DNA of 64,000 bases from Acidobacteriota bacterium (lineage in GTDB: Bacteria; Acidobacteriota; Terriglobia; Bryobacterales; Bryobacteraceae). The stretch lies in the NCBI GenBank assembly GCA_025350695.1, contig JANXXI010000247.1, forward strand, positions 1 through 64,000. Direction: 5' to 3'. Position 1 is the stretch's first letter; every line of letters begins with the position of its first letter. Positions 6,423-52,660 of the stretch are shown here, piece after piece. The notes beneath the pieces were generated by a model. The model made no database searches, was not told the origin of the DNA, and saw only the letters and a program-made list of their open reading frames with translations. Position numbers and translations under genes: made by a program.

Positions 6423-6584
6423 TTGGCGCCGGAAACTGTTGATATCACATTGAGAATTTTCAATTTCGTACCAAGAAACTTCCGACGGCCTGTGACTTGC
6501 ACTGCAATTTCGTGTACACTGGCCTTTTGGTTCGTGTTATTTTGGCCGATAGTCTAATAGGCGCGCAAGACGCTTTTACTGATC

Positions 6585-7397: not shown

Positions 7398-7462
7398 AGT
7401 GCGCCTCAGGGAATTCGGATCCAGATGAGTGCGTGACAGCCGCGTCAGCAAGAATACCAGAT

Positions 7463-7769: not shown

Positions 7770-7939
7770 CGTTGGAGATTCGGAAAGTTGCTACGGCGCA
7801 ATGCTCGGAGCCTTTCAGCCTTTACTGCCCAAGCCCGCCAACGACGCACGCTCATCACGTCCATCCGTTCGCCGTCGAAGCGGATCTGCTTCACCGCCTT
7901 CCCCTTGGCCGATTCCCGTTTCAGATAGGCGTCTTGTCT

Positions 7940-26700: not shown

Positions 26701-27240
26701 AAGCAGACCACCACCGATGCGCGGATTATTCGCCGGTCCAATCACTCCGGGAGTCAACACCACGAACGCAAGATTTGTCCGCAATCCGCCGCCGATAAAC
26801 AAAGGCAGGTCCCTGATGGCATTCTTCGGAATCACTTTTCCCAGATTGGTGCCTTGTAAATCGAGCAGCGGCGCGGCTGCGGTCACTTCCACGGTTTGTT
26901 CAAGCGTGCCGACCGTGAGCGCCAAGTCAACGTTAGAAATCGTGGCTACTTGTACATTGACGCCAATGACTTCCGCCTTCCGAAATCCGGCTTTGTCGGC
27001 ATTCACAGTGTATGAACCTGAGGGCAAATAAAGAACGGTGTAGATTCCATCGGGTCCGGTCTTGGTCCGTTGCGTCAAGCCTGTGTCGACGTTTTTCACT
27101 GTGATGGAGGTCCCGGGAATAGCGGCGGACCCTTGATCAGTGACGACTCCGCGAATGGTTCCTCTATCTTGAGCGAACGCGCTAAACGCGGAAAGAAGCA
27201 AGCAAACAGCTGGTGTGACCAGCCGACGGCAGTTCAACAT
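23731..27240 (-). CDS. TonB-dependent receptor-like outer membrane protein with carboxypeptidase-regulatory N-terminus (Oar-like)
   Basis: GTIRGVVTDQGSAAIPGTSITVKNVDTGLTQRTKTGPDGIYTVLYLPSGSYTVNADKAGF, plug-like region and C-terminal beta-barrel ending VQLGARVSF; GGAGG RBS upstream of ATG. Confidence 0.92.
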   Translation of the reverse strand: MLNCRRLVTPAVCLLLSAFSAFAQDRGTIRGVVTDQGSAAIPGTSITVKNVDTGLTQRTKTGPDGIYTVLYLPSGSYTVNADKAGFRKAEVIGVNVQVATISNVDLALTVGTLEQTVEVTAAAPLLDLQGTNLGKVIPKNAIRDLPLFIGGGLRTNLAFVVLTPGVIGPANNPRIGGGLLDGQSEQLDGAESQSERRNDPNMLGVSVEGMEEFKVQSSSYSAEYGRTSNGVINWVTKSGTNAVHGSAFIFNRNEVFNARGFTIAPSKRPIVRQWNPGGSLGGPIVIPKVFDGRNKAFFFFAYEQASTRNGQSTGLINSPLPEFRVGDFRKNVDAAGRTVALYDPFDASGNIIANAADRPRLSCRGVLDVLCPERIDPTAKLLLGLLPQPDDPSKLTANYRSRSYSTSRSWLPSIKGDYVMSDKQRFSYLFSHFRSPATLSINQYEGIAGSGFPGESLIEYHRFNYDYVITPSFLSHFTVGYNHRHILEAPDYVNQYPESLAKQIYLKGNPNKLVPGVSTVYSAYGVQWGNSVYTDSRQRTTNLKEQFAWNRGKHNVRFGMEYLSGIYRRISNNNTWGSVSFSAAGTGNPNVANSGSDLASFLLGTASGGSFRYPDDTSFQWPYFAWYMQDDFKVTRKLTLNLGLRYELPVPKMERNKHNSNFCPTCPAEAYGGLLGSMVYAGVNGQPERFGLTRKNAIGPRLGLAYQLNSKTVIRTGSAVYFQPSREDGNADNGIQGFGGTFGATGNFLSNGISYRVQDGLTAFATQIKNLTPPISSPQTLTSNLFQQTAFFFNPQAGRAPYFADWQFTVERTVTANSVFRASYHGVVGVKLLSRLQAQNQLDPKYWATYGTLLGSPISSVINNPIVAAGGFKLPYPSYPTNLQLQQALRPYPQFSNVDSNAGGQNDGHSTFHALETSFEHRFAKGLYMMTTYTFAKLISTTNGEDANRTSLGAVQNQYNRRADKAVASQDTPHNFRASFTYELPFGRGHKMLGSMPRVAEAVVGNWKVSGILTYVSGTPLAIGCNQNLFGAGQSQRCNFAPGATTGQIPLINPDWTWSHDNIGTAALGRIPYLNPAAFTLPANMSFGDTPRQMSYLRTPWTVNEDLAVLKNFRITEKSSLEIRASASNAFNRVLFGGPNTTLNSADFGRITGQGNGPRNVQLGARVSF

Positions 27241-30843: not shown

Positions 30844-31890
30844 ATGCCATCGCATCCGTTCAGCATCGGAATCACGTCCGACTTCTATACCGAGGCCAAG
30901 GGTAAGTTTGAAGATATTGTCGAAGCCAAATTCGGTGGATTGCCGAACCTTAGGGTGGAACCGCTTCCCGAACGGTCCGGCAACGTGGCGCAACTAGACG
31001 ACATCGATAAGCATGACGCCATTTTCGCTTTGGCTACCAAGTTCACTGCCGCCAGCGTCACCGGTGCAAAACGCCTTGCTCTGATTTCGCGCTGGGGCGT
31101 TGGTTACGACATGATTGACGTGCCCGCTATCACGCAGGCCGGCATAGCGCTGGCGATCACTCCAGGCGCCGTCCGCAGGCCCGTGGCTGAAGCCATTCTC
31201 GCATTGCTCTTCGCGCTGACCACTAATCTGGTAGGTCAAGACAAACTCGTCCGCCAAGGAAAATGGCGCGGACAACTTCCGGCTCTGGGACGAAATTTCA
31301 AAGGCCGCACGCTGGGCTCGCTCGGATGCGGCAACATCGCCGGCGAACTTTTTCGCATGTCCTGTTCGCTGGGTTTCGGCCGTATGATTGCGCACGATCC
31401 GTTCCTCAAAGCGGGGCAAGCCATGCTGCTAGGCGTTGAACTGGTGACGCTTGAAGAACTGTTTGACCAAAGCGATTACCTGTCCATCAACATTCCACTT
31501 TCTGATGCCACTCGCGGCTTGGTTGGCCGTTCGCTGTTGTCGCGCATGAAGTCCACCGCCTACCTCATCAACACCGCGCGTGGTCCGATCGTCAACGAAG
31601 CGGAATTGATTGATGCTCTGGAACAGCGGACCATTGCCGGCGCAGGCCTCGATGTTTTCGAAGAAGAGCCGCTCCCGGCTGCGAGCAAGTTGCGAGAGAT
31701 CGACAACGTGATCCTAGCCCCGCACGGTTTGGCATGGACCGAAGAATTGGCACGAGACAACAGCATGGAGGCGTGCGACAATATTCTTGCTCTAGCGGGC
31801 GGCCATCCGCCGGGACCCGTGGTAAATCGCGAAGTGTTATCGCACCCTACGTTCCTCAAGAAACTGGAACAATTTCGGAGAGAGAAATGA
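30844..31890 (+). CDS. D-isomer-specific 2-hydroxyacid dehydrogenase
   Basis: LISRWGVGYDMIDVPAITQAGIALAITPGA; GRTLGSLGCGNIAGELFRM; TAYLINTARGPIVNEAELIDALE; AGLDVFEEEPLP. Confidence 0.92.
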   Translation: MPSHPFSIGITSDFYTEAKGKFEDIVEAKFGGLPNLRVEPLPERSGNVAQLDDIDKHDAIFALATKFTAASVTGAKRLALISRWGVGYDMIDVPAITQAGIALAITPGAVRRPVAEAILALLFALTTNLVGQDKLVRQGKWRGQLPALGRNFKGRTLGSLGCGNIAGELFRMSCSLGFGRMIAHDPFLKAGQAMLLGVELVTLEELFDQSDYLSINIPLSDATRGLVGRSLLSRMKSTAYLINTARGPIVNEAELIDALEQRTIAGAGLDVFEEEPLPAASKLREIDNVILAPHGLAWTEELARDNSMEACDNILALAGGHPPGPVVNREVLSHPTFLKKLEQFRREK

Positions 31891-32669
31891 ACAATAGATT
31901 CCGTGAAGTGGTGGCCGCCGGCAAGATCCCGGTGGGCCACATGGTTTGGGAATTCGCCACTCGCGGCATAGCCAAGATTATTGAATCGGCCGACGTTGAT
32001 TTCGCCATTTACGACATGGAGCACTCGGCGTTTGATGTCGACAAAGTGGCTGACTTGCTTGCCTGGGCGAAAGCTTGTAACTTCAGCCCCTTCGTCCGTG
32101 TCCCCGTGTGCGATTACCAGTTCATGGCCAGAATCATGGACGCCGGAGCCATGGGTATCATGGTGGGAAATGTGAAGAATGCCGAAGAGGCAACCCGCAT
32201 TGTGCAGTCGGTAAAATTCGCGCCGATGGGGAACCGTGGCGTGGGCCTTGGCTCCGCGCATACGGATTACATGGCGCCGGATCCCCAAAAGTATTTCCGG
32301 GAAATCAACAAGAAATCGGTGATCATTTGCCAGATCGAATCGCAAGAGGGCGTGGACAGCGCCGAGGCTATCGCGGCCATTGATGGCGTGGATATCCTTT
32401 GGGTGGGTCACTTCGATTTATCGACATCCTTGGGAATTCCGGGGCAATTCGACGACTCCCGATTCAAGGCAGCGATCAAACGAACGGTGGCCGCCGCACG
32501 GAAGCATGGCAAGCTGTTGGGGATTCAACCAGGAACACCTAAGCAATTGCAGGATTGGCTTAAGGCCGGATTCAACGTAATATCCTGGGGTGCCGACTCC
32601 GCGGTTTATCGTGCGGCGCTTGTGAATAGCGTTAACTTGGTCCGGGAGAAGACTGCTAAATCAAAATGA
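31887..32669 (+). CDS. HpcH/HpaI aldolase family protein
   Basis: MVWEFATRGIAKIIESADVDFAIYDMEHSAFD; PVCDYQFMARIMDAGAMGIMVGNVKNAEEA; ICQIESQEGVDSAEAIAAIDGVDILWVGHFDLSTSLGIPGQ; ATG overlaps the upstream TGA (ATGA). Confidence 0.92.
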   Translation: MNNRFREVVAAGKIPVGHMVWEFATRGIAKIIESADVDFAIYDMEHSAFDVDKVADLLAWAKACNFSPFVRVPVCDYQFMARIMDAGAMGIMVGNVKNAEEATRIVQSVKFAPMGNRGVGLGSAHTDYMAPDPQKYFREINKKSVIICQIESQEGVDSAEAIAAIDGVDILWVGHFDLSTSLGIPGQFDDSRFKAAIKRTVAAARKHGKLLGIQPGTPKQLQDWLKAGFNVISWGADSAVYRAALVNSVNLVREKTAKSK

Positions 32670-32721
32670 AACCGATAGTACCGGAGGAGAAAAAGTACTA
32701 TACTAACTGTAAGTCTTTCTC

Positions 32722-33381
32722 ATGACACCTCTTCCCACCCCCATAAGAGCTGATTCGCTTTCGAGACAGGTTTTCGGAATTCTCAAAGAGGCAGTGTTTG
32801 ACGGTAAATTTCAACAGGGCGAGTTGATCGCGGAAATCAAGATCGCCAAATGGTTGAATGTAAGTCAAGCGACGGTGCGCGAAGCGTTGGTTCTGTTAGA
32901 GCAAAACGGCTTGGTGGTTCGGCAGAAGAACCGCAAGACCCAGGTTAACCGGCTGACCACCGACGAAGTCAGGGACAGAGTCGCGATGCGGGTTGCTTTG
33001 GAGCCGCTTGCCGCACTGAAGGCGTCGAAGGTGATGAGTAGCGAGGATCTGGAAAAGCTTGGTCGCCTGGCGGAACAAATGCCTGCGGGAGACGAAGGAA
33101 ACAGACTGAGTTCCACGCTGGCCGATTTGGAGTTTCATCGCTACCTGTGGGAAAAGACCGGAAGCCCCATCCTTGCCCGGACGCTAGAACAACTTACTAC
33201 GCCGCTTTTTGCATTCGTCGAGCCGGATCTGCCGGAGACCCAATCGCGGCACTTACTGCTTGTTGAAACATTGCGCATTCGGGACAGTGAGTTGATTACC
33301 GACAGGGTTCGCAGCCATATTGAAGAAGCATACCGATCCTTCCTGCAGCCAGAAGCGGGGCGCGCAGCCAAAACCGCCTAG
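32722..33381 (+). CDS. GntR-family transcriptional regulator (FCD type)
   Basis: AVFDGKFQQGELIAEIKIAKWLNVSQATVREALVLLEQNGLVVRQKNRKTQVNRLTTDEVRD; helical C-terminal domain. Confidence 0.93.
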   Translation: MTPLPTPIRADSLSRQVFGILKEAVFDGKFQQGELIAEIKIAKWLNVSQATVREALVLLEQNGLVVRQKNRKTQVNRLTTDEVRDRVAMRVALEPLAALKASKVMSSEDLEKLGRLAEQMPAGDEGNRLSSTLADLEFHRYLWEKTGSPILARTLEQLTTPLFAFVEPDLPETQSRHLLLVETLRIRDSELITDRVRSHIEEAYRSFLQPEAGRAAKTA

Positions 33382-36018: not shown

Positions 36019-36242
36019 AGCTACCGGTTTTTCGCTCAGGATCTGCAATTGTTTCCTTATTGTCCCAAAATCCCTTGGCTTGATCTCGGTGAGTGCGTCG
36101 CGAGCCGGACGAAAATCCCCCTGTGGCAAAGGATTGACGACCTGTATAGTGCCCTATCGATCAAGGAATTGAGGAGTTCTTGACGTCCGTCGGGTATTCT
36201 TATACGATACCTAGACCGAAGTTTATTAAGGAGTCTACAGTT

Positions 36243-39200
36243 ATGCTCGTTATCTGGCCTCGCCCTATTCTTGCGTCCCTTTTTTGGTGCACGGTCACCT
36301 TAGCCGGCCTTAACGCTCAGGGCGTGACCGGCCAGATTTCCGGCGGCGTCACCGATCAAGTTGGAGCCTCCATTGCAGGTGCGAACGTCAAGTTGACGCA
36401 CGACCTGACTTTACAAGTTAAGAGCTTTACTACAGAAGAAAACGGCTCCTTCCTATTTACCAATTTGGTTCCTGGCGAATATACCGTAAGTATTGAAGTT
36501 GCCGGGTTCAAGCAATACAAGCAACAAGCCATCAGGGTGAGCACTGAAGATCGCGTTACTCTTGGGCAAATTAAGATGAGCGTAGGGGATGTTACGAGCA
36601 CTATACAGGTGATCGCCGAATCCTCGCGCGTATCCACGGAAACTTCCGACCGGTCCATTTTAATTGACCGTCAGCAGATTGAAGACACGCCAATCAGCGG
36701 TCGCGATTACCTTGGCATTTTGCGCTCCTTGCCGGGCGTTCAGATGGTTTCCACCAGCGACATGCCGGGCTGGTTCAACACGCAGGACCAAATTGTAAAT
36801 GGCGGCCAGAGCGGTCAATTCGTTGTGACACTGGATGGTGTGGTCAGTCAGGACAGTGGCGCTCCACGCACCGGCGGTTATCTTGCGCCCAACATTGACG
36901 CCATCGGCGAAGTGAAGGTGATGACCTCCAATTACACGGCGGAATCTGGAGCCCGCTCGGGTGGGCAGATGAATGTTTCCATCAGGAGCGGAACCAATCA
37001 ATTCCATGGGTCGGCGTATTACTTCTGGCGGCACGAAATGCTATCGGCCAACGAGTTTTTCAACAACAAGAATTTCACACTGGTGAATGGTGTTCCGACG
37101 GCTTTAGCCAAGCCCCGCTATCGCTTTCAAAACCCGGGCGGCACTATCGGAGGCCCCCTTTACATTCCGGGTCTGAATTTCAATAAGAGCCGCACTCGCT
37201 TGTTTTTCTTTTTCTCGGAAGACTTCCTCCACACGATCACGACCGGGGGTGTCAATAGCTATAACATGCCGACGAAGCTGGAGCGTCTCGGCGATTTTTC
37301 GGAAACAGTGACCACGACGGGCCTGAAGATTTCAATTAAGGATCCCGAGGCCGGCGGAACAGTGTTTCCCGGTAACATCATTCCATCAAGCCGCCTCAGT
37401 CCTATTGGTAGCGCAATGATGAACCTGTTCCCTTTGCCCAACACGACCGATCCAACAGGCCGGCGTGGATTCAACACTCAGTTTCAGTTCAATCGGGAAC
37501 GTCCGCGTGAGGACCGAATTTTGAAGTTGGACATTAACATTGGACCAAGGACAACTTCTTACTTACGACTGATTCAGGATTTCCAGGCCGACCGCGGGGT
37601 GGGCGCCACGCTTAACGGCGGTGGCGGATGGGGGCAGTTTGCCAGCAATTACGACATCCAATCGGCTGGCGCGGTTTACACCGTCATCCATACCTTCCGG
37701 GCCAATCTGATCAACGAAGCATCGGCCGGCGTCAACCGCGGTACGCAGAGCACTTATGCCGCCGATCTAAACAAATTCAAAGCAGTGAATGACCTTTCGG
37801 CGTTGAAAGGGCCTGACGGCAAACCGGTTACGCTACCACGCTTCTTTAATGCCAATTACTTGAACATTCTTCCCAACATCAGTTTCGGATCGAATGGAGC
37901 CCAATCGGCAGGACAGGGGGCCACCGCGCCTCCTGGCTTCAGCTTCGATAGCCGTTGGCCTTTCCATGGCACCGATCAGCTAACAAATATCACGGACAAC
38001 CTAACCTGGATTAAGAAGAATCATACTGTCAAAGCCGGTCTATACTTTGAACACAATTCCCGCAATGTCAGCGTCTATTCCACTTATAACGCCGCCGGGT
38101 CTTATTGGTTCGGGTCTGACACGGCGAACCCGTACGACACAGGATATCCTTTCTCAAACATGATGCATGGCACGGTGCAAGCCTACGGCGAGGACAACGG
38201 CAAGCTGGTCAACCATTCGCGCTACAACCAGGTGGAATGGTTTGTGCAGGATACTTGGAAGGTAAACCGGCGACTTACTTTGGACTTAGGGATTCGCTTC
38301 CAAAAAGTACAGCCGACTTACGCACAAGGCGCCACACTGGGGCTGTTCGACGGAAAGTCATATGATGGCAATAAGTCCGGTCAGTTGCTTTTCCCCGCCC
38401 TGGTTGACGGGCAAAAGGTTGCGCTGAATCCGAAGACGGGCGCTACCTACCTGTTCGCGCGATCTACGTCCTTCGACCCGGCCTCTTATCCAACTAATGG
38501 TCTTCCCTATTCGGGTATCGTCCAGTACAACAGCAAATTCTTCAACACCCCTCCAGTGCTTTACGGGCCTCGCCTTGGCTTTGCTTGGGACGTATTTGGT
38601 AGAGGTAAAACGGCGGTTCGCGGCGGTTTTGGAATCTTCTATGGAAGGGCGTACGGCGTGGATACGATTGGCGCGACAAGTTCAGGCGTAGGGCCAATGG
38701 CGGCCCCACCGGCGTTCCGGGCTCCAATTTACTACAACACCAATTTCAGCAACCTGCTTTCCACTCAAGGATTTTACGGATCGCAAAATGTAAATGGCGG
38801 ATCACAAGATTACAAGAACCCCACCACTTACAACTGGAGCTTCGGCATTCAGCAGGATCTGCGCAAGGGGGTAATTCTTGACGTTTCTTACGTCGGCAAT
38901 GTGTTCCACCATGGGTTCGGCTCGGCGAATGATGCGAATGCCGTGGCGCCCTACACCACTTGGACGCCCGATGGCGGGGCCAACAAACTGTATCTGGATC
39001 CGACTAGCGCAAGCAACGGCACGGCGGCATTCTACGCCGCCAACTTGATCCGCTCTCAGAATAAGTACACAGGCTACGGATCGATCGCCACTTACACCAG
39101 CCTTGGCGAGTCTTCTTACAACGCGCTGCAGACCCAGATCAACAAGCGGTTCAATCGGCGATATCAGTTTAGCGCCAACTACACCTGGTCGAAGACCATC

Positions 39201-39863
39201 ATCTTTGCGCATCAACAATGGGTGGATGACAATTTAACCAAGAACGTGATCAACCGGCCGCATGCCGTGAATCTGAACTTCGGCTACGACATCCCCAAGG
39301 GTAGCCGCATGTGGTCGAACTGGTTTACCAAGGGGGTGCTGGATGGTTGGCGTTTCAATGGTGTTGGCGCATTCTTCAGCGGCACGCCATTCACGGTGGC
39401 ATGCACGGCCACCGCCCCGCCAATCGGTTATTGGACAGGCACGCCAACGGGCGGTGTTCCGTTCCGCTGCCAGATGAACGGCCCGCTGTGGCGCACCGAC
39501 GACGGTAAGGCTCCGGGGATCATTGACCAACGGCTCTACTATCCGCTCAATGCGGCCAGTTTCAGCCTTCCCGGCATCCGTTCGCTGGGAATTGGCAACA
39601 CGCCCCCGACTTTGACGTACGGACCGGGTGTGGAAAATATGGATCTGTCCCTGTCGAAGAGCTTCAAGGTGGCGGAACGAAAGACGCTTGAGTTCCGCGC
39701 CGAAGCGTTCAACACGTTTAACCATTTCAACCCATCGAATCCGAATTCGTCGTTGACCTTCAACTTCAATAGTGGGGTACAGACCAATGCTGCGTTCGGG
39801 CAGATTACGGGGACCTCGCATGTGGCGCGGCGCATGGCGGCGTCGCTTAAGTTCCGGTTCTAG
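36243..39863 (+). CDS. TonB-dependent receptor-like outer membrane protein (Oar-like)
   Basis: GQISGGVTDQVGASIAGANVKLTHDLTLQVKSFTTEENGSFLFTNLVPGEYTVSIEVAGFKQY; ends AASLKFRF; signal-like start MLVIWPRP. Confidence 0.92.
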   Translation: MLVIWPRPILASLFWCTVTLAGLNAQGVTGQISGGVTDQVGASIAGANVKLTHDLTLQVKSFTTEENGSFLFTNLVPGEYTVSIEVAGFKQYKQQAIRVSTEDRVTLGQIKMSVGDVTSTIQVIAESSRVSTETSDRSILIDRQQIEDTPISGRDYLGILRSLPGVQMVSTSDMPGWFNTQDQIVNGGQSGQFVVTLDGVVSQDSGAPRTGGYLAPNIDAIGEVKVMTSNYTAESGARSGGQMNVSIRSGTNQFHGSAYYFWRHEMLSANEFFNNKNFTLVNGVPTALAKPRYRFQNPGGTIGGPLYIPGLNFNKSRTRLFFFFSEDFLHTITTGGVNSYNMPTKLERLGDFSETVTTTGLKISIKDPEAGGTVFPGNIIPSSRLSPIGSAMMNLFPLPNTTDPTGRRGFNTQFQFNRERPREDRILKLDINIGPRTTSYLRLIQDFQADRGVGATLNGGGGWGQFASNYDIQSAGAVYTVIHTFRANLINEASAGVNRGTQSTYAADLNKFKAVNDLSALKGPDGKPVTLPRFFNANYLNILPNISFGSNGAQSAGQGATAPPGFSFDSRWPFHGTDQLTNITDNLTWIKKNHTVKAGLYFEHNSRNVSVYSTYNAAGSYWFGSDTANPYDTGYPFSNMMHGTVQAYGEDNGKLVNHSRYNQVEWFVQDTWKVNRRLTLDLGIRFQKVQPTYAQGATLGLFDGKSYDGNKSGQLLFPALVDGQKVALNPKTGATYLFARSTSFDPASYPTNGLPYSGIVQYNSKFFNTPPVLYGPRLGFAWDVFGRGKTAVRGGFGIFYGRAYGVDTIGATSSGVGPMAAPPAFRAPIYYNTNFSNLLSTQGFYGSQNVNGGSQDYKNPTTYNWSFGIQQDLRKGVILDVSYVGNVFHHGFGSANDANAVAPYTTWTPDGGANKLYLDPTSASNGTAAFYAANLIRSQNKYTGYGSIATYTSLGESSYNALQTQINKRFNRRYQFSANYTWSKTIIFAHQQWVDDNLTKNVINRPHAVNLNFGYDIPKGSRMWSNWFTKGVLDGWRFNGVGAFFSGTPFTVACTATAPPIGYWTGTPTGGVPFRCQMNGPLWRTDDGKAPGIIDQRLYYPLNAASFSLPGIRSLGIGNTPPTLTYGPGVENMDLSLSKSFKVAERKTLEFRAEAFNTFNHFNPSNPNSSLTFNFNSGVQTNAAFGQITGTSHVARRMAASLKFRF

Positions 39864-39993: not shown

Positions 39994-42753
39994 TTACCTG
40001 ATCCAAATATCGCGGAACGCTATTGGCGAACCCGGGTACGATTGGATCCCGATGAAGCCTCCGGAAACTCCACGCTCCGCGTCTGTGTTGTCGAAGACGG
40101 TAGTCAGTTGCGATGCGCCAGACTCCGTGTCAGTCAACCTCACTTCATAGTGATTGCCCGCCACCACGATGTCATACTGCATCCACACGCCAGGCCTTGT
40201 GGCAGGACCGGGAGTGTAGGCCTGAACTTGTACGTCGCGGCCTCCGGTATGGGTGATTAGATCTCCGGCCGGGATCTTGTAAATGGCCCCAGTGCGATTC
40301 TTGTAAAGACCATCGGGCTCGGGCCTCCGACCGTAATAATCTTTGTTGACATCGCCACGAGCGTTGTCGTCAATCTGGACTTCAAAACCGGAGAAGACAG
40401 CGCTCCAAGCGGGATTTGGGCCAAGAGCGGCTCCCTCGGCGTTCGCCCGCGTCCGTAATGCGGCCGGCAGTCTGCGTAACGGATCGCGGAAGCGGACAAA
40501 GACCCCGCTGTTGCAGTTGGCCGCATCGAACACGCGGAATTGTAACCGCAAGTGGAAATCATCGAATGCCTGCGGCGCATAGTAGAGCAGTGAAAAATCG
40601 GACGAGCCATAGCTTGCTAGTTCTCCGTTCAAGAACGCAAAGCTTTGCCCGCTGTTGGCGGCCCCAGCCAAGCGCCATTTCTTGAATGAGGCGGCTGTGC
40701 CGTCAAACAAAGCAGTGAACCCTTGCGCCACGGCATTAGCAACCTCCGCTTTTGGCAACACGTTCGACTGCAGCAAATCCGCCGTCCGCCGGGAAAGGGC
40801 AACTCCCGTCAGCATCGGATTTGGAGAGCCCAGGCTGGGAAATAACGCCGGAGCATTCACATAACAGTTTGTTGTATCGTGAATGCGGCCGAACTCGTTT
40901 GTCACCGAAGTCGCGGCATCGCTTCCCATCCAAAGTGTGCCCGCGTCGTGATGAGTACTTCCTTCCGCATCGCGCCGGTCATCATAGGGATGCTGCGCCT
41001 GCAACTGCGCCGCCGTGGTCCCGGCCGGCATCGGAACAGTTTTTCCTTCCTTGGTCCCAAGGATGTCGAAGGGCAAACCGTTCGCGAAGATCAACGCAAC
41101 CTCGTCCGCTAACGCATCCATGGCGTTCCAGGTCAGTTTGTCGATTTCCGATTGTGGCGTCACGCTTGTTCTTGTTTTGATATCGGCCAGAGACACCTCG
41201 GCGATGGCGCGGCCGTCTTCAGTTTTGGACGGAGACAAACGCACAAAGCTATCCGGATTATTCGGGGTCATTTCGCCAATACCTCGTAGCGTGATAACGA
41301 CGTGCGTGTCGGTGGCCGTCAGCATGGAGTCCAATTGCTCTGTGTCGGGTATCTTCTTGAAGAGTTCGGCCTCTGAATCCTGCCCTAACTTGCCCAGCCC
41401 GGAGGCCGTGATCTGCAAATGGAAGAAGCGATCCTCGCCGCCGACATTCGCTTTGCCCTTGACGAACAGCGCCGAGGCCTGCAGAGAAGTCCGCGTGGAA
41501 GTGGGCAGAGAACTCAGCGACGAAGTGGGAATGCGGATAGAGAGGTTAGACCGTAAATGGGCCACCAAGTTTTTTCCCATCCGGCTTGCGGCGCGGCCCG
41601 CCAGCGAGTCTTTGAATGTGTTGATCGCCAGGCGCGTACTTTCGATGGCCCCCAAGGCAACCACAACCGTGCTTTGATGACCGTTGGACGACGGCGCAAG
41701 CATGATCAGTTCTTCCTGACCTCCGCTGTCTTTAACTCGCACGCCGGTAACACGCACCCAGTTGTCGGCTTGTGTTTCCGTCACTAGATCCAGCACTCGT
41801 ACTATTGGAACGATCATGATACGCTTGCGTGCGTCGGCCAGCGCGTCTGTGCCATCGGCTTCCCCGGCGGCAACCCGAGCCACTTTGATTAACTCAGGAA
41901 CGGAACTGAATTTGTTGGAAGGGAACAGACCCGGTTCAGCACGTGCCAGCACCGCCAGCGGAGCCTCCAACTTGAGTAGATTCAAAAGGTCGCGGCGCGA
42001 CGTTACATCGGTGGATTTAAGCCCCAGCAATTCTCGAAGGCGGCTGTCGCTCAAGCCCGGGCTGGCCGTGGTGGTAGTGGTGGATCCGCCGCTAGCACCC
42101 GCCGCCATGACCAGATCGCCAACGGCTTCCAAGCTCGCGTAGCGCACTGCGGGATGATCTGGCAGCGCGGCCAGAGCGACAGCGTGAGGCGCCGCGATGG
42201 GAGAAGAGAGCCCATCAAAGAGTTGCCTCCGCAGAGCCGTATGAAGCCGTCCGTAAATAAAATCATTGCTGGCGGTAGCTCCTATTTGATCGCTAGACTG
42301 CCGGAAGTAGGCGTCCTTTAGCGCAGCAACAACCGACGCCGGCCAGTTCTTGAACTCCGCGTTCAGCATTTCCGGGGACCAGCCTCCCCACGCCAACGAC
42401 CTGCCGCCAATAGCAAACATCAATCCTGCATAGCCAAGAGCCGGGTGACTATCCCACGGAGCGCGAAACCCAGGTGCGCCACCTTGGAATGGCATGTTTT
42501 GGACATGCTCAGGAAGGGCGAACGGGCCGGATTCAAGAACAAGGATCCGGCGGCTGTGGGTGGCGTCATTGAGAAATAGTCTAGAGGCGGCAACGGCTCC
42601 AAATGTTCCTCCGCCGATGACAATCACGTCGAATTCGCGTGATTTTCCGGCGATTATAATTTTGGTGCTATCGATCGCTTCTTGCAATGTGTTGCAGAGG
42701 AATCGGCCCATATTGTCGAGCGAAAAGCTCGTCGTCTCAGCTTGCAGTCCCAT
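39994..42753 (-). CDS. GMC oxidoreductase fused to C-terminal DUF1080 (3-keto-disaccharide hydrolase) domain
   Basis: FDVIVIGGGTFGAVAASRL (FAD-binding), FAIGGRSLAWGGWSPE, EGSTHHDAGTLWMGSDAATSVTNEFGRIHDTTNCYVNAPALFPSLGSPNPMLTGVALSRRTAD (GMC C-terminal); then FTALFDGTAASFKKWRLAG...FAFLNGELASYGSSDFSLLYYAPQAFDDFHLRLQFRVFDAANCNSGVFVRFRDP...GFIGIQSYPGSPIAFRDIWIR (DUF1080). Confidence 0.9.
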   Translation of the reverse strand: MGLQAETTSFSLDNMGRFLCNTLQEAIDSTKIIIAGKSREFDVIVIGGGTFGAVAASRLFLNDATHSRRILVLESGPFALPEHVQNMPFQGGAPGFRAPWDSHPALGYAGLMFAIGGRSLAWGGWSPEMLNAEFKNWPASVVAALKDAYFRQSSDQIGATASNDFIYGRLHTALRRQLFDGLSSPIAAPHAVALAALPDHPAVRYASLEAVGDLVMAAGASGGSTTTTTASPGLSDSRLRELLGLKSTDVTSRRDLLNLLKLEAPLAVLARAEPGLFPSNKFSSVPELIKVARVAAGEADGTDALADARKRIMIVPIVRVLDLVTETQADNWVRVTGVRVKDSGGQEELIMLAPSSNGHQSTVVVALGAIESTRLAINTFKDSLAGRAASRMGKNLVAHLRSNLSIRIPTSSLSSLPTSTRTSLQASALFVKGKANVGGEDRFFHLQITASGLGKLGQDSEAELFKKIPDTEQLDSMLTATDTHVVITLRGIGEMTPNNPDSFVRLSPSKTEDGRAIAEVSLADIKTRTSVTPQSEIDKLTWNAMDALADEVALIFANGLPFDILGTKEGKTVPMPAGTTAAQLQAQHPYDDRRDAEGSTHHDAGTLWMGSDAATSVTNEFGRIHDTTNCYVNAPALFPSLGSPNPMLTGVALSRRTADLLQSNVLPKAEVANAVAQGFTALFDGTAASFKKWRLAGAANSGQSFAFLNGELASYGSSDFSLLYYAPQAFDDFHLRLQFRVFDAANCNSGVFVRFRDPLRRLPAALRTRANAEGAALGPNPAWSAVFSGFEVQIDDNARGDVNKDYYGRRPEPDGLYKNRTGAIYKIPAGDLITHTGGRDVQVQAYTPGPATRPGVWMQYDIVVAGNHYEVRLTDTESGASQLTTVFDNTDAERGVSGGFIGIQSYPGSPIAFRDIWIR

Positions 42754-43239: not shown

Positions 43240-46200
43240 CTAGAAATCTACGCGGAGAGCGAACTGGAACACTCGCGGATTTCCCTGCGTTCCAGTAAAC
43301 TTCCCGAACGTGGAGGGCGGTACCGGGGCTGTACCGCCAGGCGTTTGCGAAGTGAATGGATCGCGAACCAGGCCGAAGGTCGAAATGCCGGTGAAGTGTT
43401 GCGTATTGGTCACATTGAACGCTTCCGTGCGGAAGGTCAGCTTGATCTTCTCAGTGATAGTAAAGCTCTTGTACAGGCCTAGATCGATGTTGAACAAACT
43501 CGGAAGGCGCAACACATTGCGGTTTCCGTATTCACCCGGATTTGCGTTGCGATAGCTTTGGTAGGCATAGGTTGGATCGCTGAACAGGTTGGGGTCTCCG
43601 GTGCGGGTTGGGTTCGCTTTTAATTCGCGAATCGCTACACCGTTAGACTGCGAGTTGAAGTTCGTTGCCCATTGACTGGAATCGAACGGCTGGCCGGAAG
43701 GTAGTCCGGACGCCCAGCGGAAGATACCAGTTGAGGTCCAGCCGCCCAGGATTGCCTGTTCCACGCGATTGGCGTTGCCGAAGAACATCTTGCCCTTACC
43801 GGACGGCAGTTCGTACAGGAAGTTCATGTTGACGTTGTGGCGGATGTCGAAATTCGAATTGGCGCGGTTGACGTTCAGATCGAACGGATTCTGCACGAAC
43901 GGGGAACCGAAGTTGCCAGTCACACTCGTATTTTGCGCACCAGAGGCGATGTCGATTGAGTGCCCGGTGGTGTAGTTCAGATCGAACGAGACTCCTTTTT
44001 CCAAACGCTTGCGAAACGAGAATTGCGCCGAGTGGAAGTCGGAGGTACCCAGCGTGGAGAATGTGGTAAGGGCGCCGTATTGAGGTTGGTAGAACAGTGG
44101 ATTGGAAGTGGGACCGCGGAGATCCCATATGTCTTGAACCGTTGTGTAGTCGGTGGTGTTGTTGCCGCCCACTACCGTGCGCGCGATGCGGCGGTAAGCG
44201 GCTTGCGTTGCAGTCAGACTCACCGTCTGACCTAGGAAAGTCGCGTTGCCTGCCAACTTCGGCAGCATGTTTTCAAAGAAAGGAATGTTACCTACCGCGG
44301 TGATCGGCGTGACCTTATCACGCAGGTCGATCAATTGCCGAATGGAGGTGTACCAATCGGCGCCAGACTTCGGATCCTTGATGTTATTCGGAGTCATCAC
44401 GTCACGGCTAAGGAGCAGCGAGCGCGCGATGCGTCCGACATAGGCGGCTTCAAACGAGAATCCACGCCCCAGTTCCCGGGCTGCGCTGATATTAAATGCA
44501 TGGTTGTAGGGCGTGGTCAGCTTGTCGTCGAGAGACGATTGGATGCGTCGGCTGGAATCCGCGGGCTGGCCGGAAGGAAACGCCAGGCTGGATGGAATGA
44601 TAAGTTTGGGTAAGTTGCGTATCTCCTGATTTAGGCCAGTAAACAAAGGGGGAAGATTCGTCGTTGTATTGAAAGTATTCGCCGAAATCCCGGCTGCGGA
44701 AGTGAATCCGATGGCGTTGACGGCATCGAAGTTGACAGCCAGCGCGCTACCAATACGGTCGTACACTATGCGGTATCCGCCGCGCAGCACCATCTTCTTC
44801 GAGAACTGCCAGGCAGCTGAAATCGACGGGGCAAAATTGTTCCAATCCTGGGAATAGAAGCCAGGCTTACCGTTCGCCTTTCCCGAGTAGTCCAGAGTGA
44901 GCAACCCATTGTAGGGGACGCCACTAGCGGAACCGGCAACACGTTGGTCAAAAAAAGTGCTGAGGCTGGTGGTTGGGGCAACCTGATAACCAGTGGCCTC
45001 GTAAACCGGGGTGGACGTGGACCAACGGACACCAGCATTAATGGTGATGGTGGGACGAATGCGCCACGAATCCTGGATATAACCCTCATACTCCTCGGTC
45101 TTAAAGTTACGCGCGACGCCTGTTCCTGGAGCCTGCACCTTACCGCTGCGATCATAGACGAGGTTGGCGGTGTATTGAGGAAGGCGTCCTATCAACGCCC
45201 CCAGGGCATCGCGGGTATTAATCGCCGACCTTGATGCGAGGTTCGGGAAAATATTATTCCCAGCGGCATCGAGATACAGGCTATCTCCCGAGCCCTCGTA
45301 GAAGGATGGGTTTGTTGTTAACGCGTCGTAGGAGGCGCTGTATGCATTCCTGTTGTTGGAGATCCAGCGAAAATTGACGCCAGCCTGAACGGTATGCTTA
45401 CCCTTGCTCCACGAAATGTCGTCCACGATGTTATGAACCGGCGTCGTGCGCACTCTGGCGCGTGAGAAGTTCAAGGGTTGGAAGACGAAGCGGAAAACGA
45501 CCGAGTTCTGATTCGAATCTCCGCCCGTGGTGATTGCGTCACGAGTTATGCCGTAGCGGAATGAATTAATAAGGTTGGGCGAAACCGTCCATGATTCGCT
45601 GACGGCGAGACCGCGCGGATGGGCCCAGGTCTGCACCTGCGCCGTGTCTGGGAAGCGGGAAGTGCCGGTGGAAACATCGTTCTGGTAGTTACCGCGGACG
45701 TTGAGGTTGTGTTTCGAGTTCAGAATATAGTCAACGCGAGCCGTTGCCGTTGCTTGCCTCACAGGGGTTGAGGAATTGAAACGGAGGCCGCTTGTATTCA
45801 ACCCGTCGCCCACGGTGGTGTCATTCGCGGAATACTTCGCCGCGGCAGCCGCAAGAATGCCGATAGTGGCGTTGTTCGTTCCCGGGTCCACTTTGTTCGA
45901 CGCCAGATAGGCGGAACTGATCTGAGCACGGTTCAGGCAGGTAACACCGGAAGGAGTGCCTGCCGGGCAACTGGGGTCGCTCGCGCCATTCGCCGAAAAA
46001 TACCGCACGATACCCTGGCCCAGCGACGGTAGCGGAACCTGGTTGACCACAACCGAGCCCTTTGCTTCACGGAACTGTTCATAGTTGAAAAAGAAGAAGA
46101 TCTTGTCTTTCTTGATCGGACCGCCGATGGACCCGCCAAAGTTGTTGCGCAGCAGCTTGGGCCGCTCAACGCCGGCCTTGTTACTAAACCAATCATTGGC

Positions 46201-46977
46201 GCTGGTCTTAGTGTTGCGGTGATATTCGTACAGGGAACCATTGAACTGGTTGCTGCCGGACTTAGTAAGCAGGGCGATTTGGGCGCCTGACGAACGGCCT
46301 TGATCGGCGTTCGGGTTTGTGGTGGTCACGCGAAATTCCTGGAGGGAATCGGGGGTGACTCGCAAGACACTGAAAAAAGTGTTTCCAGAACGGGCATCGC
46401 CGCCGTACTGGTCCTGATCGTTCACATCGACGCCGTCAAGGGTAACGTTAGCTTGATCGAACCGTCCACCATTCACCGAACCGCCGGCGGTCACACCGGG
46501 CTGTAGCGAGAGCAAGCCCACAACATTGCGGGCGCTAAGCGGCAGGTCGCGAACTTGGGTCGAATTGAATGCGTTGCCGATGGTGGCGTCGGTTGTGTTG
46601 ACAACGGAGGCCTGAGCGTTTACCACCAATATTTCGTTGACTGAGCCGACTTCGGAAAACTTCATGGTGATGCTCTGCGAAGTGTTCACCAGCACGTCGA
46701 GACTCTTGCTGATGAGCGCCTTGAAACCGGTCATCTCAACCTTGAGATCGTAAAGTCCAGCCTGCAGTTGAGGGAAGGAAAATGCTCCGGTGGCGTCGCT
46801 GGTATCTGTTCGAATTGTGTTGGTGGCGCGGCTGGTGAGAGTCACCTTGGCGCCAGGAACAACCGCGTCCGTCGGATCGACTACTTTACCCGAAAGCGAC
46901 GTGCTGGTTTGCGCGAAACTTAGTGAGTTAAAGGCCAGCAAGAATATGGTTAATGCCGCGCTGATTGAAGACTTCAT
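43240..46977 (-). CDS. TonB-dependent receptor-like outer membrane protein (Oar-like)
   Basis: TSLSGKVVDPTDAVVPGAKVTLTSRATNTIRTDTSDATGAFSFPQLQAGLYDLKVEMTGFKA; C-terminus FQFALRVDF. Confidence 0.92.
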   Translation of the reverse strand: MKSSISAALTIFLLAFNSLSFAQTSTSLSGKVVDPTDAVVPGAKVTLTSRATNTIRTDTSDATGAFSFPQLQAGLYDLKVEMTGFKALISKSLDVLVNTSQSITMKFSEVGSVNEILVVNAQASVVNTTDATIGNAFNSTQVRDLPLSARNVVGLLSLQPGVTAGGSVNGGRFDQANVTLDGVDVNDQDQYGGDARSGNTFFSVLRVTPDSLQEFRVTTTNPNADQGRSSGAQIALLTKSGSNQFNGSLYEYHRNTKTSANDWFSNKAGVERPKLLRNNFGGSIGGPIKKDKIFFFFNYEQFREAKGSVVVNQVPLPSLGQGIVRYFSANGASDPSCPAGTPSGVTCLNRAQISSAYLASNKVDPGTNNATIGILAAAAAKYSANDTTVGDGLNTSGLRFNSSTPVRQATATARVDYILNSKHNLNVRGNYQNDVSTGTSRFPDTAQVQTWAHPRGLAVSESWTVSPNLINSFRYGITRDAITTGGDSNQNSVVFRFVFQPLNFSRARVRTTPVHNIVDDISWSKGKHTVQAGVNFRWISNNRNAYSASYDALTTNPSFYEGSGDSLYLDAAGNNIFPNLASRSAINTRDALGALIGRLPQYTANLVYDRSGKVQAPGTGVARNFKTEEYEGYIQDSWRIRPTITINAGVRWSTSTPVYEATGYQVAPTTSLSTFFDQRVAGSASGVPYNGLLTLDYSGKANGKPGFYSQDWNNFAPSISAAWQFSKKMVLRGGYRIVYDRIGSALAVNFDAVNAIGFTSAAGISANTFNTTTNLPPLFTGLNQEIRNLPKLIIPSSLAFPSGQPADSSRRIQSSLDDKLTTPYNHAFNISAARELGRGFSFEAAYVGRIARSLLLSRDVMTPNNIKDPKSGADWYTSIRQLIDLRDKVTPITAVGNIPFFENMLPKLAGNATFLGQTVSLTATQAAYRRIARTVVGGNNTTDYTTVQDIWDLRGPTSNPLFYQPQYGALTTFSTLGTSDFHSAQFSFRKRLEKGVSFDLNYTTGHSIDIASGAQNTSVTGNFGSPFVQNPFDLNVNRANSNFDIRHNVNMNFLYELPSGKGKMFFGNANRVEQAILGGWTSTGIFRWASGLPSGQPFDSSQWATNFNSQSNGVAIRELKANPTRTGDPNLFSDPTYAYQSYRNANPGEYGNRNVLRLPSLFNIDLGLYKSFTITEKIKLTFRTEAFNVTNTQHFTGISTFGLVRDPFTSQTPGGTAPVPPSTFGKFTGTQGNPRVFQFALRVDF

Positions 46978-48076: not shown

Positions 48077-50197
48077 GTGACCCGACTCGCCGCCTTCATC
48101 CTACTGGCTACTACCGCTCTTGCCCAATCCGATTGGCCCACCTTCGGTAACGACCCCGGCGCCATGCGCTACTCTCCCCTGCGTCAAATCAACACCTCGA
48201 ACGTCACCCGCCTTCAACCCGCCTGGACATTTCGCACCGGCAAACCAGGCTCCGAAGCCGTTCCGCTCGTCATCAACGGAATACTATACGTCAACGCACC
48301 GGACGGGGTCTATGCGCTCGTCCCTGAAACCGGCGAGCTGCTGTGGAAGCACGCCGCCGCGCCTATCGCGCTTCGGGGTCTGGCTTACTGGCCGGGCTCG
48401 GCCAACATTCACCCGCGAGTGTTCACCGGTAATGGCCCCTATCTATTAGCGCTAGACGTCACCACAGGCAAACCCGCGCCAGGCTTCGGGAATGAGGGCC
48501 GCGTCGATCTAAAAAAGGGTGTGCTCGGCGATTTGAAAGATGGCCGCTACGCCCTGCAATCCCCACCGGCCATCTTCGGTGACGTTGTCATCACTGGCTC
48601 AAGTAACGGCGAAGGTTCACCCACGCTCGGACTCTATGGCGACATTCGCGGATGGGACGCTAAGTCCGGTAAGCTGCTCTGGACATTCCATACCGTGCCC
48701 CGGCCAGGCGAACCTGGGGCCGAAACATGGCCCACCGATGGCTGGAAAAATCGCTCCGGCACCAACGTCTGGGGCTTCTTCACGGTCGATGTGAAACGCG
48801 GCATCGTCTACGCCCCGCTCGGCTCGCCCACTTCCGATTTCTATGGCAAGGATCGTATCGGCGACAACCTGTATGGCAACTCGCTAGTTGCGCTCGACGC
48901 CCGCACCGGCGCAAAGAAGTGGCATCAACAGTTGGTGCATCACGACATTTGGGATTACGATCTAGCCGCACCTCCGGCCTTATTCGACATTCGCCGCAAT
49001 GGCCGCATCATCCCCGCCGTGGCACAAATCACCAAGATGGGCCTGCTCTTCGTCTTCGATCGCGTCACCGGCGCGCCCATCTACGGCATGGAAGAACGCG
49101 AAGTGCCTCAAACCATCGTGCCCGGCGAAGTCACCGCGAAAACGCAGCCCTTCCCCATGAAGCCGCCGCCGCTTGGCAAGAACACATTTCGCATGGAAGA
49201 GATGTACAACTTGACGCCGGAACATGCACGTTTTTGCAAGGATTTGTTTGAAACAAATCAGATGAAAATTGGCGGCCCCTACACGCCGTTACCCCTTGAA
49301 GGGAACGCGTTGCTTTTTCCCAGCACACTAGGCGGTGGCAACTGGGGAGGCGTTTCGGTCGACCCAACTCTTGGCCGCCTATTCGTAAATATCATGCACG
49401 TGGGCCAATGGGGACACATGGAAAAGCGCGGCGCCGATTATGTGAGGACGTCTGCCTACGGAAACTACGCGCGGTTCTGGAATCGCGAAACACGCGTGCC
49501 TTGCCAAAATCCGCCCTTCGGGGAAATGGTTGCGGTTGATCTCGCCACGGGCGACATTGCCTGGCGCGCGCCGCTCGGCCACATCGATTCGCTGGAAGTG
49601 ATCGGCGTGCGCGACACCGGCACGGTGAGTCTCGGTGGCAGCCTCGCCACGGCTGGAAGTCTTGTGTTCATCGGAGCCACCAACGATGCCCGCTTCCGCG
49701 CCTATGATTCGAAGGTTGGCAAAGCGCTTTGGGAAGTTAAGCTGGAGGCGAACGCGCATTCGAGCCCTGTCACTTATATGGGTCGCGATGGCCGTCAATA
49801 CATTGTGCTGATGGCCGCCGGCGGGGGAGCTTTCTTCGGCGGCGCACCCAGCAACACGCTTGTCGCTTTTGCTCTTCCCGACGCACCACGCAAGCCGCTC
49901 CCCCTGGCGGTATCAAAGGCAGTAGCAGCGGCAGCGGAAGCCCGTCGCGGCGAACCGAAAGTAGGAGCCTTCACGCCACTTGCATTGGCCTCCGGCGATG
50001 CCAAAGCTCTAGTCGAAAAAACCTGCGGAACAGGTTGCCATGCAATTGAAGTCGTAACAAGTCAACGTATGAGCCAGACGGATTGGGACGGAGTTGTTCA
50101 AAACATGGTGGCGCGCGGCGCACAAGCTTCGGACGCTGAGGTCAAAGCGATCGTGGAATATTTGGGCAAGACGCTTGGCAAGAGCGAAGGAAAGTAG
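48077..50197 (+). CDS. PQQ-dependent dehydrogenase with C-terminal cytochrome c-like haem motif
   Basis: DWPTFGNDPGAMRYSPLRQINTSNVTRLQPAWTFRTG; GDIRGWDAKSGKLLWTFHTVPRPGEPG; C-terminal VEKTCGTGCHAIEVV (CxxCH). Confidence 0.92.
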   Translation: MTRLAAFILLATTALAQSDWPTFGNDPGAMRYSPLRQINTSNVTRLQPAWTFRTGKPGSEAVPLVINGILYVNAPDGVYALVPETGELLWKHAAAPIALRGLAYWPGSANIHPRVFTGNGPYLLALDVTTGKPAPGFGNEGRVDLKKGVLGDLKDGRYALQSPPAIFGDVVITGSSNGEGSPTLGLYGDIRGWDAKSGKLLWTFHTVPRPGEPGAETWPTDGWKNRSGTNVWGFFTVDVKRGIVYAPLGSPTSDFYGKDRIGDNLYGNSLVALDARTGAKKWHQQLVHHDIWDYDLAAPPALFDIRRNGRIIPAVAQITKMGLLFVFDRVTGAPIYGMEEREVPQTIVPGEVTAKTQPFPMKPPPLGKNTFRMEEMYNLTPEHARFCKDLFETNQMKIGGPYTPLPLEGNALLFPSTLGGGNWGGVSVDPTLGRLFVNIMHVGQWGHMEKRGADYVRTSAYGNYARFWNRETRVPCQNPPFGEMVAVDLATGDIAWRAPLGHIDSLEVIGVRDTGTVSLGGSLATAGSLVFIGATNDARFRAYDSKVGKALWEVKLEANAHSSPVTYMGRDGRQYIVLMAAGGGAFFGGAPSNTLVAFALPDAPRKPLPLAVSKAVAAAAEARRGEPKVGAFTPLALASGDAKALVEKTCGTGCHAIEVVTSQRMSQTDWDGVVQNMVARGAQASDAEVKAIVEYLGKTLGKSEGK

Positions 50198-50308: not shown

Positions 50309-52660
50309 ATGACGTCAGGACGCTGGCAACAGATCAAAGTAATCTTCGAAGGAGCAATGGATCTTGGCCCGGATCAACGGGCGCGGTTCGTGAGCCAGCA
50401 GTGTGGGGGTGACGAAGAGCTGCAGCGCGATGTAGAAGCGATGCTTTCTTCCGACGCATCCGGCGCCAGCACGCAGTTCAAAAGCCCGCTGGCAAAAGTA
50501 GCTGCCCTGATGGCCGCTGAGGCCGTGCTCGCCGAGACACCAATCAAGGCGCCCGAACATACAACGCTCAAAAATCGATATAAGATCCTCCGCGAGCTTG
50601 GGCGCGGTGGCATGAGCGTTGTTTACTATGCGCACGATTTGCAGTTGCTCGACAAGCCGGTAGTAGTCAAAGTTTTGCTCGACAAGACTAACGCCGACCC
50701 CTACATGCGCCAAAAATTTCAACAGGAAATGGAGGCTTTGGCCCGTATCGATCATCCCGACGTGGTGGGTGTCTTGGATTATGGCCTAAACGCCGAAGGC
50801 CTGCAGTTTTTGGTGATGCAGTTCATTGACGGCACAACCCTGCGGGACGCCATCAAGCCTGGGGGCATGGAGATGAAACGCGTCGTTGACCTGATCAGTA
50901 AAGTTGCCGAGGCTCTTTCGAGCGCCCACGCGAAAGGAGTGTGGCATCGTGACTTGAAGCCGGAAAATGTCATGCTTCAAAGAATCGGCCGCGAAGAGCA
51001 TGTGAAAGTAATCGACTTTGGAATTGCCGGTATTCAGAATTCTCAGTTCGGCGGAGAAGACTCAAAAATCGCCGGCACCATGACCTATATGGCTCCGGAG
51101 CAGTTCGCCGGGCATGCTTGCGCGGCCAGTGATACCTACGCGCTGGGTGTGGTGGCCTTCGAGTTATTAACCGGAGAAAAGCCGTTTCCTCCCAATTCCT
51201 TGGTCCATCTAGCCGCCGAAGACAAAACCACGGCAACCAAGCTTGAAACGTTACGACAGGATGTGCCGGAAGGATTGAGGCGCGCGGTGTTGAAGGCCAT
51301 GGCCTTCCGGGCTGACCAGCGGCAGGCGGAGATTGGAGAATTCGGAGAGGATTTGCAGCGGGCGTTCGCTAGCGATGCGGAAACACAAGTACGAAGAACG
51401 ACGGCCACGCCGGGCGGCCTGGAAATCGCCCACGTGCTTTTCACTGATCTGGTTGGTTATTCCTTGCTTTCGATGGACGATCAGAAAGAATACTTAGCCC
51501 AGTTTCAAACGATCGTACGAGGGTCCGGGCAGTTTCGCGAAGCCGATGCCGCGGGGAATTTGATTAACCTGCCCACTGGCGATGGCATGGCTCTGGCGTT
51601 TTTTGGCGATCCTTCCGCGCCTGCGAAGTGCGCTCTGGAAATCGCCGAGGCACTAAAGACGCAGCCCCACTTGAAGTTGCGCATGGGCATCCACAGCGGC
51701 CCCGTGTACCGTGTCGCCGACATGAACGCGAATGCCAACGTGTCCGGTGGTGGCATCAACATGGCGCAACGAGTGATGGATTCGGGCGACTCCGGTCACA
51801 TCCTGCTCTCACGCAATGTGGCCGATGTGCTGGAGCAGTTGCGGGGCTGGAGCGAGAGCCTAACCGACTTGGGTTTTCACGAAGTGAAGCATGGATTGAA
51901 GGTCCATTTTTACAATTTGTGCAAGGATGGGTTGGGAAATCCGGCGCTACCTCGCAAGCTGGCCCTAACCAAAGTCCCGCCCAAGCCTGTTTCCGTTAAG
52001 ACGCTAATAATTGCGGCTGGTCTCACAGTGGCGCTAGTCTTGGGTCTGGGCAGTTACGTCGCTTGGGACAAAGCGGCGTCACAGAAAGCGGCGCAAAGAG
52101 CTGCGGCGGAGGCGGCGGAGGCGGCCAAGCCCAAGCACATCCTTCGGTACTTCGTGATGGTGTACAAGGTTCGCGACAAGGTGGTTGTTAAGCAACCCAG
52201 CCGTCTTGCGGGCGAGCGGATTTTCGACGAGGATAATCAAATCCGCTTCACTTTTAGTAACCCGGAACCTGGGCACTTGTACATACTGAACGAAGGGCCG
52301 AATTCGACGAACGAAAAGCCGGATTTAAACTGCCTGGGTGTGGAAAAACTCCGGGCCGGTCAGGAATTTAATGTGCCGTCTAAGGGTCTTATCGTTTTCG
52401 ACAAAGAGCAAGGCAGGGAGAAGCTCTGGCTGGTCTGGTCCCCTACTCCCTTGGATAGAATGGATGCGCTCGAGCGGTGGAGAACGTCCGAATATTTAGG
52501 ACATGTGGGCGATCTGGCGCAGGCAAAGGACGTCCTGAGTTATTTGAAAAATGCGAAACAGGCGGACAAGAGCGAAGAAGAGAGCGAGCAGGGACCAAGA
52601 ACTCTGCTGAAGTCTCCAACCGACGTATTGGTGAGACTAATCCCATTGGATCACCTATAG
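50309..52660 (+). CDS. Ser/Thr protein kinase fused to class III nucleotidyl cyclase domain, TM and DUF4384-like C-terminal region
   Basis: Kinase LGRGGMSVVYYAHD, HRDLKPENVML, VIDFGIAG, MAPEQ; cyclase HVLFTDLVGYSLLS, LPTGDGMALAFFGD, RMGIHSGPVYRV, GGGINMAQRVM; TM LIIAAGLTVALVLGLGSYVAW. Confidence 0.93.
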   Translation: MTSGRWQQIKVIFEGAMDLGPDQRARFVSQQCGGDEELQRDVEAMLSSDASGASTQFKSPLAKVAALMAAEAVLAETPIKAPEHTTLKNRYKILRELGRGGMSVVYYAHDLQLLDKPVVVKVLLDKTNADPYMRQKFQQEMEALARIDHPDVVGVLDYGLNAEGLQFLVMQFIDGTTLRDAIKPGGMEMKRVVDLISKVAEALSSAHAKGVWHRDLKPENVMLQRIGREEHVKVIDFGIAGIQNSQFGGEDSKIAGTMTYMAPEQFAGHACAASDTYALGVVAFELLTGEKPFPPNSLVHLAAEDKTTATKLETLRQDVPEGLRRAVLKAMAFRADQRQAEIGEFGEDLQRAFASDAETQVRRTTATPGGLEIAHVLFTDLVGYSLLSMDDQKEYLAQFQTIVRGSGQFREADAAGNLINLPTGDGMALAFFGDPSAPAKCALEIAEALKTQPHLKLRMGIHSGPVYRVADMNANANVSGGGINMAQRVMDSGDSGHILLSRNVADVLEQLRGWSESLTDLGFHEVKHGLKVHFYNLCKDGLGNPALPRKLALTKVPPKPVSVKTLIIAAGLTVALVLGLGSYVAWDKAASQKAAQRAAAEAAEAAKPKHILRYFVMVYKVRDKVVVKQPSRLAGERIFDEDNQIRFTFSNPEPGHLYILNEGPNSTNEKPDLNCLGVEKLRAGQEFNVPSKGLIVFDKEQGREKLWLVWSPTPLDRMDALERWRTSEYLGHVGDLAQAKDVLSYLKNAKQADKSEEESEQGPRTLLKSPTDVLVRLIPLDHL

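Follow-up and report, generated by a model that had tools for sequence, protein, structure and literature searches.

The fusion gene and its two domains

The window, a stretch of 64,000 nucleotides from contig JANXXI010000247.1 of an Acidobacteriota bacterium (Bryobacteraceae), contains on its minus strand an intact open reading frame at 39994–42753 that encodes 919 amino acids and ends in a stop codon. Residues 1–664 (40762–42753, minus strand) were assigned to a GMC flavoenzyme half from Pfam GMC_oxred_C and Foldseek matches, and residues 678–919 (39997–40722, minus strand) to a DUF1080 (PF06439) domain, a concanavalin-like jelly roll, from Pfam, AlphaFold and Foldseek. Between them lies an inter-domain linker of about residues 656–679 (40717–40788, minus strand), placed from the interval between R655 and L682. 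The FAD dinucleotide-binding motif, read from the sequence as DVIVIGGGTFGAVAASRL, occupies residues 42–59 (42577–42630, minus strand), and its core IGGGTFGA (46–53) is conserved in the family.

The original prediction of one uninterrupted frame with a GMC domain followed by DUF1080, for which no strand had been named, was borne out, as both Pfam domains score above their cut-offs: GMC_oxred_C at residues 528–653 (E 7.6e-13, above the curated cut-off) and 3keto-disac_hyd, PF06439, at 678–919 (E 1.6e-25, 90.7 bits against a gathering cut-off of 26.8). The motifs that it quoted, IGGGTFGAVAASRL (46–59), THHDAGTLWMG (600–610) and SPNPML (643–648), were all found. No match to Pfam GMC_oxred_N was obtained in the 919-residue frame up to E 1; the N-terminal half of the GMC part is divergent, and only the dinucleotide-binding motif is recognisable in it. 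Since the fold comparison spans whole GMC enzymes, membership in the GMC family rests on the fold and on the C-terminal domain. The same genome contains 34 PF06439 matches, indicating that the C-terminal family is common there and that the fusion is the unusual part. A promoter and terminator scan gave no signal exceeding that of shuffled sequences.

Distribution and conservation of the fusion

A GTDB scan yielded 80 loci, and searches of plasmids and phyla brought up additional fusions from Rhizobium, Nostoc and other Acidobacteriota. The search for this architecture elsewhere, one of the checks proposed with the original prediction, recovered from public genomes and plasmids 56 single-frame fusions that span both halves, a set that includes MAG contigs and a few near-duplicates (the same-genus orthologue is counted twice). 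They come from about ten phyla: Acidobacteriota, Nitrospirota, Pseudomonadota (Nitrosospira, Nitrosovibrio, Nitrobacter, Bradyrhizobium, Rhizobium and Microvirga), Actinomycetota, Bacteroidota, Verrucomicrobiota, Planctomycetota, Myxococcota, Cyanobacteriota and Rokubacteria. The same-genus orthologue is of equal length and 76% identical to the window protein. That orthologue, together with the 56 homologues that carry both domains in one frame, makes it extremely improbable that the gene is a chance fusion or an annotation artefact in which two genes were read as one; nothing was found in favour of this reading, and we rejected it. The open literature that we searched contained no published account of a GMC–DUF1080 fusion; it is a real and widespread architecture, undescribed in that literature.

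No variation was seen among the 56 fusions at H602, N645, E791, Q793, D795, W857 and Q904; N748 and Y825 are kept in 55, and the glycines G47, G49 and G52 of the FAD motif are at least 90% conserved. Comparison of the window gene with its same-genus orthologue, a pair in which synonymous sites are near saturation, gave nonsynonymous differences of 0.154 for the GMC half, 0.118 for the DUF1080 half and 0.30 for the linker; divergence in the linker is roughly double that of the halves. The low nonsynonymous change in the two halves indicates that both are maintained by purifying selection. Across the family, 19 to 41 residues separate the conserved R655 and L682.

A quick tree placed relatives that consist of the GMC half only among the fusions, which suggests, with limited support and several long branches, that the fusion arose early and was lost or regained afterwards. 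In the flanks of these GMC-half-only relatives we found no DUF1080 gene that could be a split counterpart. Broken or shortened copies of the fusion were also observed on an Azospirillum plasmid (locus L046, 8031–8831), in genome G217 (L049, 7930–10620) and in an Acidobacteria MAG (L070, 1526–4243).

Predicted catalytic residues and reaction

A family profile of the GMC half matched HMF oxidase, glucose dehydrogenase, pyranose oxidase, fructose dehydrogenase and the C-glycoside 3-oxidase PsG3Ox in the PDB. Foldseek aligned the AlphaFold model of this half (pLDDT 82, pTM 0.85, some loops of low confidence) best with pyranose oxidase 9fl2 (8e-20), fructose dehydrogenase, DaCGO1 (8qve, a C-glucosyl oxidoreductase) and FAD-glucose dehydrogenase; the best PDB matches of the model are all sugar-oxidising GMC enzymes, at moderate TM-scores (target-normalised, about 0.6). 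Profile alignment to 7qf8 identified H602 (40948–40950, minus strand) as the predicted catalytic base, equivalent to H440 of PsG3Ox, and N645 (40819–40821, minus strand) as the predicted second catalytic residue, equivalent to N484. Alanine mutants of H440 and N484 are inactive, and both residues are essential for the oxidation of glycosides at C3 (PMC10646112). The Foldseek matches and the correspondence of this pair support the GMC half as a sugar oxidoreductase. The substrate and the oxidised carbon are not fixed by these data, because identity to the structural matches is only about 15% and GMC_oxred_N is undetected; relatives oxidise C1, C2, C3 or C5. Bacterial pyranose oxidases and C-glycoside 3-oxidases (the Oscillatoria enzyme 9fl2, DaCGO1 and PsG3Ox) have the GMC fold, the FAD motif and the co-positioned His/Asn pair in common with the fusion, to which are added a conserved N-terminal extension (T8..D13..GR17) and the C-terminal DUF1080 domain.

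The DUF1080 half was modelled with a pLDDT of 94.6, and Foldseek ranked solved DUF1080 proteins first and lectins next. Pfam and AlphaFold, the means by which the prediction was to be checked, agree on a GMC and a DUF1080 fold. A single-sequence PDB search with this half returned nothing useful, whereas a profile search succeeded. The Foldseek matches of the model include 8v31, titled 3-keto-2-hydroxy-glucal hydratase, so that the family label "hydrolase" also takes in the hydration of an elimination product. The invariant E791-x-Q793-x-D795 motif (EVQID; 40369–40383, minus strand) contains an E-x-Q that is also found in solved DUF1080 proteins. The latter, as compared here, carry a histidine in the motif LQxH; chain 9fbe_B has asparagine at this position and otherwise matches chains 3osd, 8rr2 and 8tda. 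Judged from these sequences, 9fbe_B appears to be a catalytic-residue mutant, and the LQxH histidine is probably catalytic.

In the window protein this position is occupied by Tyr906 (40036–40038, minus strand). Among the fusions, 32 of the 56 have histidine at 906 and 24 have tyrosine, and the window protein sits in a supported clade of 20 in which all have tyrosine. Residue 603, which adjoins the catalytic H602, changes from Glu to Asp together with the change from His to Tyr at 906. The 29 further DUF1080 domains compared from this genome never have tyrosine there; most have histidine. The original prediction, which depended on a C-terminus with the DUF1080 active site, is upheld by the PF06439 match, the jelly roll and the E-x-Q, but not by the LQxH histidine; by sequence the window copy is a member of PF06439, which does not imply activity. 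Because Tyr906 occupies the position changed to asparagine in 9fbe_B, it should not be taken for granted that this copy cleaves its substrate.

On balance we give an even chance to the reading that the fusion is a cytoplasmic, FAD-dependent, two-domain carbohydrate enzyme in which the GMC domain oxidises the substrate and the tethered DUF1080 domain handles the keto-sugar. The GMC half would oxidise a sugar or glycoside at a secondary hydroxyl, with transfer of hydride to FAD and H602 and N645 as the catalytic pair, and the keto-sugar would then be passed to the tethered DUF1080 domain. In the histidine clades the keto-glycoside would undergo elimination or hydration in this domain, so that oxidation and cleavage follow each other on one chain; in the Tyr906 clade of the window protein, where the domain is under selection and keeps E-x-Q, cleavage may be altered or perhaps reduced to binding. 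The analysis itself establishes the architecture, its conservation, the two folds, the change at residue 906 and the neighbourhoods; we infer a sugar as the substrate, C3 as the site of oxidation and the hand-over between domains, as well as any link to chromate.

The oxidise-then-cleave activity of the original prediction gains from the two genuine, fused and co-conserved domains, from sugar oxidisers as the nearest relatives of the GMC half, from the PsG3Ox-like catalytic pair and from the retained E-x-Q; it loses through Tyr906 in the window copy and through the variety of carbons that the relatives oxidise. Given a real, conserved fusion and sugar-oxidising GMC matches, this activity is plausible for the family, and it is a reasonable reading for the histidine clade.

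Several known systems resemble parts of this scheme. In the use of lactose by Caulobacter, a LacABC-type dehydrogenase and a DUF1080 protein were proposed to cooperate as separate proteins (PMC9007349). As in the fusion, an FAD sugar dehydrogenase is paired with a DUF1080 protein; the Caulobacter proteins, however, are separate and periplasmic and have partner subunits, whereas the fusion is a single chain with no signal peptide. The PF06439 proteins of the Bacteroides type (3osd, 8rr2, 8tda) and the Alistipes AL2 hydratase (8v31) share fold and E-x-Q with the fusion; the window clade differs from them by its tyrosine for the LQxH histidine, by its fusion to a putative oxidase and by not being exported. 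The Agrobacterium GlycDH and AtOGE eliminase, PuCGE and the levoglucosan pathway follow a logic resembling that proposed here, C3 oxidation followed by beta-elimination, but their eliminases have a fold unrelated to DUF1080 (AtOGE is a Mn2+ TIM barrel) and the proteins are separate.

A somewhat unlikely alternative is that the GMC half is the sole enzyme and that the DUF1080 domain of the window clade is a non-catalytic module that binds or positions sugar, like lectins of the same fold. Tyrosine in place of the LQxH histidine throughout the clade, the rank of lectins directly after DUF1080 proteins in the structural search and the persistence of some relatives as a GMC half alone all point this way, but E791, Q793, Y825 and W857 are conserved, the DUF1080 half changes no faster than the GMC half, and the majority of the fusions retain the histidine.

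Gene neighbourhoods and a possible link to chromate resistance

The window gene is flanked by two genes for OMP_b-brl_4 (Oar-type) outer-membrane proteins, and such genes lie in the window at 23734–27240, 36180–39860 and 43243–46977. The original prediction had taken TonB-like receptors on both sides as a sign of glycan uptake. The two Oar-type genes are present, but their support for uptake is lost, since at least 65 such genes occur in the genome (65 of 194 candidates scored), the receptor genes do not adjoin the same-genus orthologue and the window protein has no signal peptide. We therefore rejected a glycan-uptake locus of the TonB/Sus type. An exported enzyme was likewise rejected, because 54 of 55 homologues lack a hydrophobic N-terminal stretch; in the single homologue with one, the stretch seems to stem from readthrough into sequence ahead of the conserved start.

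Other genes of the window were also recorded. The plus-strand gene at 48077–50194, near the fusion, likely encodes a quinohaemoprotein alcohol or sugar dehydrogenase: its product has the propeller of a PQQ-type dehydrogenase (E 9e-188) and, towards the C-terminus, a CxxxCH/CxxCH-like haem motif (CGTGCH). A 783-residue frame at 50309–52657 (plus strand) combines a Ser/Thr kinase with a guanylate/adenylate cyclase-like domain (Pkinase E 9e-39, Guanylate_cyc E 4e-5), and at 30844–33378 (plus strand) a 2-hydroxyacid dehydrogenase, an HpcH/HpaI aldolase and a GntR/FCD regulator lie side by side in a compact acid-catabolism operon.

In the family as a whole, the genes that turn up repeatedly near the fusion are ChrA, ChrB and DUF1259, the last of which we take to be the LppY/LpqO-type family that includes chrL of Arthrobacter FB24. 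DUF1259 is the directly adjoining gene on the same strand in five loci (L062, L067, L073, L075 and L093), and chr genes are found close to the fusion in two of the closest relatives (L053 and L070). In Rhizobium, Bradyrhizobium and two MAGs the fusion directly adjoins a TreZ-like GH13 gene (−27 to +8 bp), an arrangement that speaks for a carbohydrate enzyme. In Nostoc (L045) a gene weakly matching DyP-type peroxidases ends about 40 bp upstream of the fusion, which would fit production of H2O2. The original prediction did not foresee the recurrent chr and GH13 neighbours; none of the ChrA, ChrB, DUF1259, GH13 and DyP partners adjoins the window gene.

Further neighbours were noted at single groups of loci. 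A DUF6209 gene adjoins the fusion on the same strand in four loci of the tyrosine clade (L055, L056, L058 and L064). On both the Nostoc and the Azospirillum plasmid, M4 metallopeptidase genes occur in the vicinity of the fusion or of what remains of it; the coordinates of the neighbouring frames there are 6210–7883 and 2564–3733 in L045 and 8891–10576 in L046. In the Nitrosospira loci L056, L076 and L080 a CusA-like RND metal-efflux gene, identified by eye, is found about 4 kb from the fusion.

The number of ChrB_C matches in the 32 fusion-bearing genomes (about 203 Mb) is 31, of which 10, in 8 genomes of varied phyla, fall within the 0.60 Mb of the fusion loci, against 0.09 expected. This enrichment, the adjoining DUF1259 genes and the position of the two close relatives would agree with the fusion being an accessory enzyme of chromate-resistance determinants, whose flavin half supplies reducing power or alters a stress-relevant metabolite, comparable to ChrJ of FB24. 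In that strain chrJ, chrK and chrL are required for a high level of chromate resistance (PMC2751784). The FB24 determinant (chrJ, chrK, chrL, chrA, chrB) resembles the fusion neighbours ChrA, ChrB and DUF1259, and a YncE/YVTN-type propeller among the recurrent neighbours resembles its WD40 protein ChrK; ChrJ, however, is a malate:quinone oxidoreductase and not a GMC–DUF1080 protein, and the window has no such neighbours. We consider this role improbable, since most fusion loci have no chr genes within 8 kb and shared mobile resistance islands can produce such linkage. Linkage to chrA/chrB is seen for many homologues but not for the window copy, near which no chr gene was recognised in the window; ChrB had no match in its genome or in the same-genus relative, and ChrA is present on another contig. 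An own-genome chr operon was rejected on these grounds.

A simple scavenger of glycans would not be expected in chemolithoautotrophic nitrifiers or with chr genes recurring nearby, and this weighs against the two-domain carbohydrate reading. A more elaborate reading, which we hold to be doubtful, is that of a self-contained oxidoreductive glycosidase, a single polypeptide that would oxidise a glycoside and hand the keto-intermediate to its own eliminase/hydratase domain, and that was recruited into chromate-stress operons in many bacteria, including nitrifiers, with the window clade using tyrosine for histidine in a changed reaction. In the literature examined, oxidise-then-eliminate cleavage of glycosides is known only from multi-protein pathways. 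A natural single-chain version, if true, would be a compact enzyme against glycosides that resist ordinary glycosidases and would allow a direct test of keto-sugar channelling, and the strongly enriched linkage to chromate genes together with the autotrophic nitrifier hosts points to a physiological role beyond sugar scavenging.
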